This document shows, in pieces, positions 3,489 to 59,603 of a stretch of 64,000 nt of DNA. Made by a program: the position numbers and the translations under genes. The notes beneath the pieces were generated by a model, which was not told the origin of the DNA, searched no databases, and saw only the letters and a program-made list of their open reading frames with translations. This DNA comes from Alkalimarinus coralli (GTDB lineage: Bacteria; Pseudomonadota; Gammaproteobacteria; Pseudomonadales; Oleiphilaceae): NCBI RefSeq assembly GCF_023650515.1, contig NZ_CP096016.1:1884001-1948000 (forward strand), given 5' to 3'. The stretch's first letter is position 1. Each line of letters starts with the position of its first letter.

Positions 3489-3583
3489 ACCTATACGGTT
3501 TAAAATCCATTCTTTAACCATTAAGATTGAGCTTATTTGAGTGGGAAGCAATCCTCTTCACAAATTTTAAAACGGACAAACTT

Positions 3584-4387
3584 ATGTTAACAGTACACCC
3601 CATCAAAGCATTCTCAGACAACTACATCTGGTGTATTGAAAACCCCGCAACAAGGCAGTGCGTAGTGGTCGACCCAGGCGATGCGAAGCCCGTAGTTAAA
3701 TACATGCAGGACAATCACCTGACACTTCATAGCATATTGGTTACTCATCACCACTATGACCATACTGATGGAATTGACCCGCTGCTGAAAGAAGCGGCAA
3801 AAACAGCAACGTCCGCTATAGATGTGTATGGGCCTGCGAACAGCAAAATCTCGCAGATTAATAACCCACTCACACAGGGTGATGAAATATCAATATTTAA
3901 CACTCAATTTAGAGTCAGTGAAGTGCCAGGGCATACACTTGACCATATCAGTTTCTTTTCGCCGTCTGACCCTCAACACAAAAGCCCTTGGCTGTTCTGT
4001 GGAGACACGTTATTTTCAAGCGGCTGCGGGCGCCTATTTGAAGGCTCCCCCAAACAAATGCTAACGTCACTGAAAGCACTTGCAAAACACCCAACTGATA
4101 CAAAGGTATACTGCACCCACGAATATACACTAGCCAATTTGGCATTTAGTGAAGCCGTAGCGCCTCATAACCAGAAAATCAAAGACTACGCCCAAAGCTG
4201 CCAGAAGAAGCGAGTAAATGGCTTACCTACCTTGCCAACATCCATTCAAACAGAGCTTGAAATTAACCCGTTCCTTAGATGTGACAAAGCGGAGATTAAA
4301 GAATCTGTATCGCGGCACTCAAATTTAGAAATGTTGTCAGAACTTGAAGTATTCACAGCACTTCGATCATGGAAGGACTCATTTTGA
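3584..4387 (+). CDS. gloB: Hydroxyacylglutathione hydrolase (glyoxalase II)
   Basis: 267 residues from ATG 3584; the family is usually 250-260. It hydrolyses S-lactoylglutathione to lactate and glutathione, the second step of methylglyoxal detoxification in the cytosol. The metallo-beta-lactamase signature HHHYDH is at residues 55-60, with further metal ligands in EVPGHTLDHIS, CGDTLFSSGCGR and THEYTLANL. The C-terminus ...LRSWKDSF is typical for the family. An upstream TTG at 3527 would add 19 residues with no homology, so ATG 3584 is preferred. The stop codon lies inside the terminal repeat of a small mobile element that follows. Confidence 0.95.
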   Translation: MLTVHPIKAFSDNYIWCIENPATRQCVVVDPGDAKPVVKYMQDNHLTLHSILVTHHHYDHTDGIDPLLKEAAKTATSAIDVYGPANSKISQINNPLTQGDEISIFNTQFRVSEVPGHTLDHISFFSPSDPQHKSPWLFCGDTLFSSGCGRLFEGSPKQMLTSLKALAKHPTDTKVYCTHEYTLANLAFSEAVAPHNQKIKDYAQSCQKKRVNGLPTLPTSIQTELEINPFLRCDKAEIKESVSRHSNLEMLSELEVFTALRSWKDSF

Positions 4388-4438
4388 GAGACTTTTCACG
4401 ACGATCGTTGTTACAAATACAGCCTGCAAAGGCCTCTT
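4384..4438. mobile_element. MITE-like element, internally deleted copy
   Basis: A 55-base remnant of the family also found at 11913-12078 and 59447-59590. The left end TTGAGAGACTTTTCACGAC matches the family terminal repeat TTGAGACCTTTGCACGAC with one extra base and one substitution. TTACAAATACAGC follows, matching the inner end of the 59-kb copy, and then a degenerate right end TGCAAAGGCCTC. The central part is missing. The left end overlaps the TGA stop of gloB. Confidence 0.6.
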
Positions 4439-11912: not shown

Positions 11913-12078
11913 TTGAGGCCTTGATACGACGTTGTGAGCGAAGCAAAGACCAGGCAAAGAATGACGGAAAAAGCGCAGTTTATATGTAATAAATCCCGGT
12001 CAACCCCGGGGGCGCGCACAATCATGAGTCATTTTTAACACCGTATTTGCGAGCGTAATAGTCAAACAAAGGCCCCAA
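11913..12078. mobile_element. MITE-like element, copy inside the yej operon
   Basis: 166 bases. The terminal repeats are TTGAGGCCTTGATACGAC at 11913-11930 and, on the other strand, TTGGGGCCTTTGTTTGAC at 12061-12078. Between them GTGAGCGAAGCAAAGAC, AAAGCGCAGT and TGAGTCATTTTT match the copy at 59447-59590 almost base for base. The middle differs and carries a GC-rich hairpin (CCCGG-CCGGG, about 11995-12010). There is no open frame inside and no obvious target duplication. It occupies nearly all of the yejA-yejB gap and could affect expression between them. Confidence 0.75.
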
Positions 12079-59418: not shown

Positions 59419-59446
59419 AACTGGTTCACGCCCACTTACTTACAAA

Positions 59447-59590
59447 TTGAGATCTATGCACGACTACTGTGCTTACAAATACAGCGTTAAAAAATGACTC
59501 AAAATGCTCATATATTACATATATACTGCGCTTTTTCGTCATTTTTTGCCTTGTCTTTGCTTCGCTCATAACGTCGTGCAAAGGTCTCAA
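59447..59590. mobile_element. MITE-like element, best-preserved copy
   Basis: 144 bases with terminal inverted repeats TTGAGATCTATGCACGAC (59447-59464) and, on the other strand, TTGAGACCTTTGCACGAC (59590-59573), 16 of 18 identical. Inner inverted repeats AAAAAATGAC (59489-59498) and GTCATTTTTT (59538-59547) would extend the fold into a long hairpin. No open frame and no clear target duplication are seen. Related copies lie at 4384 and 11913. Confidence 0.8.
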
Positions 59591-59603
59591 AGTTCTTATT
59601 GCC

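Follow-up and report, generated by a model that had tools for sequence, protein, structure and literature searches.

A high-copy family of short non-autonomous elements in Alkalimarinus coralli and the occurrence of its folded core in other bacteria

The window (the whole 64,000-nucleotide stretch of the Alkalimarinus coralli genome analysed here) contains three related inverted repeats: a full-length copy, below called the focal copy, a copy of a longer form, and a short deletion derivative (Table 1). A sequence-only reading had linked these three places by shared sequences, all of which were found where it had put them, and the match of the 18-nt ends of the focal copy at 16 of 18 positions (89%) as well as its inner dyad AAAAAATGAC/GTCATTTTTT were reproduced. 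The copies had been said to encode no protein, and indeed no open reading frame of 90 aa or more lies within them. The longer-form copy is matched at 11943-12050 (36.6 bits) by R1, a covariance model of the 86-nt core built from 56 sequences. The flanks of the 4388-4436 copy, TTTGA and TTTAG, are alike in three of five bases. Its alignment with the 50-bp deletion form at locus L116 scores 28, the best of 2000 shuffles being 8, and a similar 50-bp form is found at L118; hence the possibility that it is a diverged full copy was rejected.

Table 1. Copies of the element in the window, with the parts of the focal copy
Feature	Positions	Strand	Remarks
Full-length copy, 140 bp (focal copy)	59449..59588	-	ends set at GAGA/TCTC termini; terminal repeats 59449-59464 and 59573-59588
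Target duplication, first copy, AAATT	59444..59448		four of five bases as in the second copy
Target duplication, second copy, AAAGT	59589..59593		right flank of the focal copy
Conserved folded core of the focal copy	59475..59560	-	covariance model R1, 97.7 bits; the 56 training sequences include this copy itself
Covarying stem S2, arm	59489..59498	-	partner 59538-59547
Covarying stem S2, arm	59538..59547	-	partner 59489-59498
Conserved internal-loop side TGAGCATTTTGA (minus-strand reading)	59499..59510	-	conserved columns of alignments A3 and A4
Conserved internal-loop side GAAAAAGCGCAG (minus-strand reading)	59526..59537	-	conserved columns of alignments A3 and A4
Distal hairpin, stem TATAT/ATATA and 5-base loop	59511..59525	-	all 280 cells of the stem paired in A3
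Longer-form copy, 162 bp, with extra GC-rich middle	11915..12076	+	ends and target duplication decayed
Deletion derivative, 49 bp	4388..4436		immediately 3' of the stop codon of ORF 3527-4387

The family turned out to be far larger than the three copies noticed in the window. The 30-base core, with at most three mismatches, has 84 matches (37 + 47) in the 4.83-Mb single-contig genome and none in the reversed control, which sets its genome-wide copy number at 84 or more. The ends of the element are 16 bp long, GAGACCTTTGCACGAC; an 18-base pattern formed by the end and two flanking bases yielded 179 matches at the same tolerance, compared to four in the control. The 144-base query produced 40 scored places and 58 matches, the reverse-strand self-likeness being counted in, and a profile constructed from 58 copies identified 87 distinct full-length copies among the loci retrieved.

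Two full-length forms exist, of 136–143 bp (55 of the 87 copies) and 160–162 bp (32 copies). In the consensus of the longer form a 26-base G+C-rich piece stands in place of the ATGAG of the shorter one; in individual longer-form copies, e.g. L031, this insert holds the palindrome GGTCGACC, replacing part of the loop described below. Deletion forms of 39, 49–51, 77–84 and 127 bp and solo ends are present too, the forms of 39–51 bp having no core. Two forms of 39 bp, from two species of the genus (L113 2499-2537 and L092 1501-1539), each have a matching 5-bp duplication. A 39-bp form is what remains of a full copy after deletion between the direct repeats GCAAAG, and hence may never have moved at that length. 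We rejected the transposition of true 39-bp units in favour of in-place deletion, which is the simpler account and probably the origin of the forms at both loci.

The insertions have left a clear signature. The 5 bp outside the ends are exactly duplicated in 56 of the 87 full-length copies, whereas shuffled partners gave a mean of 1.4 and a maximum of 6 in 200 shuffles. Another 18 copies have four of the five bases alike, so that four or five bases match in 74 of the 87. Exact duplications of other lengths are virtually absent: none at 4 bp, two at 6 bp, and at most two at any other length from 4 bp upwards. The targets are A+T-rich. Identical copies occur at unrelated sites (L003 and L004), and five short-form copies have an identical partner, a sign that some insertions are recent.

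At the focal site, the sister genome G004 retains matches on either side, and its intergenic gap is 145 bp shorter, which fits the 140 bp of the element plus 5 bp of the duplication. By its length this gap may be an empty site, of the kind the sequence-only reading had proposed to look for in sister strains, the flanks being too diverged for the exact junction. The other three genomes of the genus have no usable match across it. Genome-wide, two of the four contain short or partial matches to the element and two contain none. The location of the copies between genes, also claimed earlier, holds for 69 of the 87 genomic copies; 18 overlap a predicted reading frame by more than 20 bp, as judged by a crude ORF caller.

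Many dispersed non-coding copies shorter than 500 bp, here 136–162 bp, bounded by terminal inverted repeats and a fixed 5-bp target duplication, are what defines a MITE. The dispersal, the fixed termini and the exact duplications mark the copies as insertions, and the repeats of the window are supported as copies of a non-autonomous DNA transposon. This is the first of two origins considered in the sequence-only reading, and the copies and target duplications that it had suggested seeking were both found, together with the identical copies at unrelated sites. The second, a hairpin-forming repeat spread by another route, is right in part as well, as the whole element folds into one long interrupted hairpin. 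REP and REPIN sequences are ruled out by the 16-bp ends with 5-bp duplications: such sequences are not known to have inverted-repeat ends with a target duplication.

The search for the transposase covered the IS4, IS5 and IS1182-type families (Pfam PF13751 and PF01609) and yielded 12 copies of one IS1182-type transposase (546-aa open frame) and, besides these, an apparently truncated one and a fragment. It is very improbable that this abundant element mobilises the MITE copies. Its copy number, its open frame and the pattern GAG..CT..T that its end has in common with the MITE end would fit such a role, but the ends themselves are GAGGCTGTGAAAGTAT against GAGACCTTTGCACGAC of the MITE, and the duplication is about 3 bp, as seen by eye in a palindromic repeat, against 5 bp. 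Having such ends and residing inside another palindromic repeat, it is no obvious partner of the MITE, and we rejected it as the driver for the differing ends and the apparently differing duplications. The twelve copies (e.g. L213, L217, L220) sit within the palindromic repeat CCTTGATTCCGC..GCTGCATCA with an apparent duplication of 3 bp; the IS1182-type element appears to target this other hairpin repeat of the genome.

A transposase gene with the ends of the MITE, which the sequence-only reading had also proposed to look for, did not turn up among the transposases and solo ends that were inspected; by eye, no transposase frame accompanies the solo ends in the four such loci with listed ORFs. 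One solo end adjoins a two-gene pair (L115 2898-3461; 97 and 88 aa) that resembles, again by eye, a RelE/Phd-type toxin–antitoxin system. The driver IS would be expected to carry the ends GAGACCTTTGCAC and to generate 5-bp duplications. The anatomy of the family, that is, its copies, ends and duplications, demonstrates mobility, the enzyme excepted; the window element is a MITE whose enzyme was not found among the families searched.

The interrupted hairpin forms on either strand of the focal copy, with z-scores of −7.2 (RNA) and −6.6 (DNA) for the minus strand and −6.8 and −6.0, respectively, for the other. We drew the structure of the core by hand from the aligned sequences themselves and assessed it on two alignments, A3, with 56 rows, four of them from the A. 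coralli genome (loci L158 and L149 being left out of A2 and A3), and A4, with 96 rows, 94 of them distinct. In A3, the covariation score is 0.398 (0.148 in shuffled alignments), the fraction of paired cells is 85.8% (70.9%), and the number of double-changed stem cells is 201 (71), none of 500 shuffles being as high by any of these measures. If the structure is slid by one to three columns, the covariation score falls to 0.049–0.107. The column pair 22–70 features all four Watson–Crick pairs (AT 17, TA 13, CG 12, GC 8). Two further measures, rated as the most robust to relatedness among the rows, did not rise above the shuffles: pairs changed on both sides (15 compared to 13.5, with 102 of 500 shuffles as high) and further pair types (50 compared to 45.7, with 32 of 500 as high). 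In A4 all five covariation measures exceed all 500 shuffles (score 0.524 compared to 0.161), although its rows were fitted to the covariance model and its covariation leans towards the latter. RNAalifold alone predicts only the distal stem with a short extension. In most relatives this stem is TTTAC/GTAAA, in the focal copy TATAT/ATATA.

The two sides of the internal loop, GAAAAAGCGCAG and TGAGCATTTTGA, largely face each other as mismatches. In A4, 22 of their 24 positions have the consensus base in at least 88 of the 96 rows, and the other two are an A in 83 and a C in 67 rows; some of this conservation follows from the choice of rows, many of which were picked by the exact loop pattern. Among the rows chosen by the model, both sides are exact in 30 of 48, with C or G allowed at one position. 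The longer form lacks the TGAG of the loop and has spread nonetheless, which counts against a strict need for the loop. The mismatches have another implication. The stems could covary through mutation alone, if template switching at quasipalindromes repeatedly perfected their arms, and such correction is known to act on long imperfect palindromes. However, the same correction should mend the mismatches of the loop, and these are retained at the positions just counted, some of the A4 rows having been chosen by the loop; hence we regard a purely mutational origin of the covariation as quite improbable.

It is also unlikely that the core is a structured RNA, that is, a one-strand element such as a terminator, mRNA stabiliser or sRNA that is transcribed and merely carried by the MITE. 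Such an RNA would agree with the covarying stems, the conserved loop and the stem formed by an A-run and a T-run, and the G-U to A-C counts can be read in its favour: 82:23 in the set that includes model-chosen rows, and 20:8 in stem S1 of A3. However, for S1 and S2 of A3 together the ratio is 36:29 (16:21 in S2), with 18:14 in the pattern-selected half of the rows and 18:15 in the other, so that near balance prevails among rows not chosen by the model, while the ratio of 55:8 in the model-selected rows comes from a selection biased towards G-U. We had initially considered these counts as proof of a fold at the DNA level, and this was dropped once the set with model-chosen rows had pointed the other way.

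The genomic context does not favour a transcript either. Relative to co-directional flanking genes, 24 copies have the same and 25 the opposite orientation. Of the gaps containing a copy, 27 of 80 are between divergent genes, compared to 31 of 129 gaps without a copy, which is not a significant bias (P = 0.11); the 32 of 87 copies located between divergent genes, at first sight too many, are no significant excess over this baseline from the same genome. The lack of both biases favours, weakly, a role at the DNA level or one independent of orientation. Finally, no family of Rfam 15 reaches the gathering score in the window or at the element positions of 30 loci. The family sX9 was seen below the threshold on L132 only (22.9 bits, E 3.2) and did not recur in 20 further loci, so it was discarded. 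The family 5_ureB_sRNA exceeds its gathering score at L138 684-969 and L145 531-817, near the elements and not within them.

The core occurs far beyond the genus. Matches to the element are present in 25 of 163 genomes of the family (here and in the counts for the order and class below, the A. coralli genome is included), chiefly over the inner part, with different ends. The exact loop pattern (32 bases held fixed, with a gap of 3–9 bases between them) is found in 12 of the 390 genomes sampled from the order, belonging to ten genera, with none in the reversed control. The model R1, whose E-values are rough, has matches in 141 of the 369 genomes sampled from the class, representing 113 of 272 genera; the best match has E ≤ 1e-10 in 84 of these genomes and E ≤ 1e-15 in 45. 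In a sample of the phylum it matches 93 of 398 genomes, of which 61 are outside the class, mostly with weaker scores; the best of the latter (G962) has an E-value of 5.5e-15, and all 11 of its scored candidates match. The counts by E-value and, for the phylum sample, by kinship were made by hand from the listings. Since at most 12 (class) or 11 (phylum) candidates per genome were scored and the filters were stricter, the copy numbers are minimum values and weak members may have been missed.

The named carriers of the core are plasmid records of Pseudomonas, Halomonas and Ca. Fukatsuia, and the loop pattern is present in two viral contigs. No match to the core was found in phages or in E. coli genomes. 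Searching viral contigs with the end motif gave three matches, one with a second end at four mismatches, and none of them has the core. A pattern scan of genome contigs gave three matches, in Flavobacterium and cyanobacteria, which we took as chance. Among the relatives scored by R1 (92 loci, a part of the full set), the plasmid elements of P. tremae and P. amygdali, of the P. syringae group, have 63.9 and 60.7 bits, respectively, and are flanked by CTAG. At L292 1501-1828, three whole or partial cores (89.5, 47.2 and 29.4 bits) are arranged in tandem about 130 bp apart, as nested insertions or an array. At L132, L154 and L155 (genomes G149 and G152, of one genus), core-bearing MITEs apparently reside, as judged by eye, inside a different palindromic sequence (GAAGCTNAAGCTTC-like), and the duplications TTTA, TGAA and TAAA, about 4 bp long, are seen there; a fourth locus, L133, has TTTA/TTCA.

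The ends of the relatives are diverse and include CAGGCTGTTGAAAAAC, GGGAACCTCTGAAAAAC, GAGGGTGTTGCAAAAC, AGGGTGCCTCTATAAAT, CCTACTGTGTCACAAAG and AGGACTTACGCAAAACG. We analysed the flanks of 90 of 96 rows, excluding L292:1761, the minus-strand match at L240, L249 from the A. coralli genome, and three more with short flanks; at least one place is represented twice among the 90 (L170 and L288). Identical YTAR tetramers are located outside the ends (at least 9 of 12 positions identical) in 22 of the 90 relatives, compared to none for the control class RATY. A 4-bp duplication of the YTAR type is the rule for MITEs of the IS5-type family; the copies of the A. coralli genome have 5-bp duplications instead. 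The same core is therefore combined with at least two types of duplication and probably at least two types of transposase have moved elements carrying it. Judging by the compared sequences, this looks like a superfamily in which the ends and duplications change between lineages and the folded core stays, and the family of the window genome looks like a local burst of this widespread superfamily.

The diversity of the ends bears on the possibility that the element is an ordinary IS-derived MITE, its inner part being inherited ancestral filler and the likeness across genera a result of recent horizontal spread, not function. MITEs with IS-like ends are well known, the core is found on plasmid records and in two viral contigs, and the two stricter covariation measures in A3 do not clear the shuffles, all of which would suit such an origin. 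On the other hand, the core is better conserved than the ends, whereas recent spread would produce the opposite; the stems have the excess of double changes reported above, while the loop columns remain constant; and in MITEAba12, according to the part of the description available, it is mainly the ends that are conserved, with a variable centre (PMC6382973). On balance, we find inherited filler a rather improbable explanation.

The reading we consider probable is that of a MITE mobilised in trans, belonging to a superfamily with exchangeable ends whose inner hairpin is kept for its function. A transposase supplied in trans, perhaps lost, diverged or retained by relatives, would bind the 16-bp ends, cut, and insert the element into A+T-rich sites with a duplication of 5 bp. 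The superfamily would span the class and probably the phylum, the ends of 16–20 bp and the duplication varying by lineage and the 86-nt inner hairpin being retained. The ends may drift or be swapped to fit whichever transposase is available. We infer that the fold of the core has a function: the element would depend on the hairpin and therefore keep it, most likely in the form of a folded single strand or a cruciform, in the DNA or in the transcript, and a widely conserved host factor may recognise the mismatched loop, aiding copying of the element or its tolerance.

A folded middle common to elements with quite different ends, from many other bacterial families, suggests that the fold may do a job of its own. 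A bolder version of this, which we put forward only tentatively as possible, is that one folded DNA or RNA module, with its loop fixed across much of the phylum, forms the functional centre of many MITE families served by unrelated transposases, being portable, separable from both the ends and the enzyme, and recognised by a conserved host factor and not by the transposase. If so, mobile elements would have a component of a new kind, to which short non-autonomous elements owe their success. A MITE is generally recognised by its ends, its centre counting as filler. In the present elements it is the centre that is conserved, given its covarying base pairs and conserved loop, the differing ends and duplications around it, and its presence in 141 of the 369 class genomes sampled. 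A functional core would give a handle on why some MITEs amplify, on the host factors involved, and on the way in which one transposase is exchanged for another. Moreover, R1 may be used as a model for annotating repeats where, as in the loci tested, no Rfam family reached the cut-off.

Literature searches by end strings yielded no match; among the listed matches to core strings, all were on other subjects by title; and searches by topic, most subscription journals lying outside their range, produced no description of the core. The known systems described below are compared on the parts of the reports available. REP/BIME sequences are intergenic palindromes, as are the elements here; however, they are 20–40 bp long and carry a GTAG or CGTC tag, whereas the elements of the window are insertions bounded by inverted repeats and have target duplications (PMC3733652). 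The R0 and R2 repeats of P. fluorescens are closer, being high-copy, hairpin-forming, intergenic and MITE-like, with ends matching a resident IS. These families of 89 and 110 bp abound in only one of three strains, the other two having few copies or none, and, unlike the window family, they have no class-wide core mentioned in the available part of the report (PMC2718517). MITEAba12 of Acinetobacter is a 113-bp MITE with IS-like ends of 16 bp, the same length as in the window element, but its duplication is 9 bp and its conservation, mainly in the ends with a variable centre, is the opposite of that in the window family (PMC6382973).

By its ends, size and target, and compared without its inner sequence, the closest published element is MITEPsy1 of Pseudomonas syringae (PMC3189936). 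It is about 100 nt long, contains no gene, has inverted ends and a 4-nt duplication, CTAG or YTAA, and has been mobilised experimentally; similar sequences were reported in P. stutzeri, strain HdN1, Marinobacter aquaeolei and others (PMC3189936). Its end CCTCTGAAAAAG (PMC3189936) resembles the GGGAACCTCTGAAAAAC type of the relatives found here, whereas the elements of the window family are longer, 140–161 bp, and have a 5-bp duplication and other ends.
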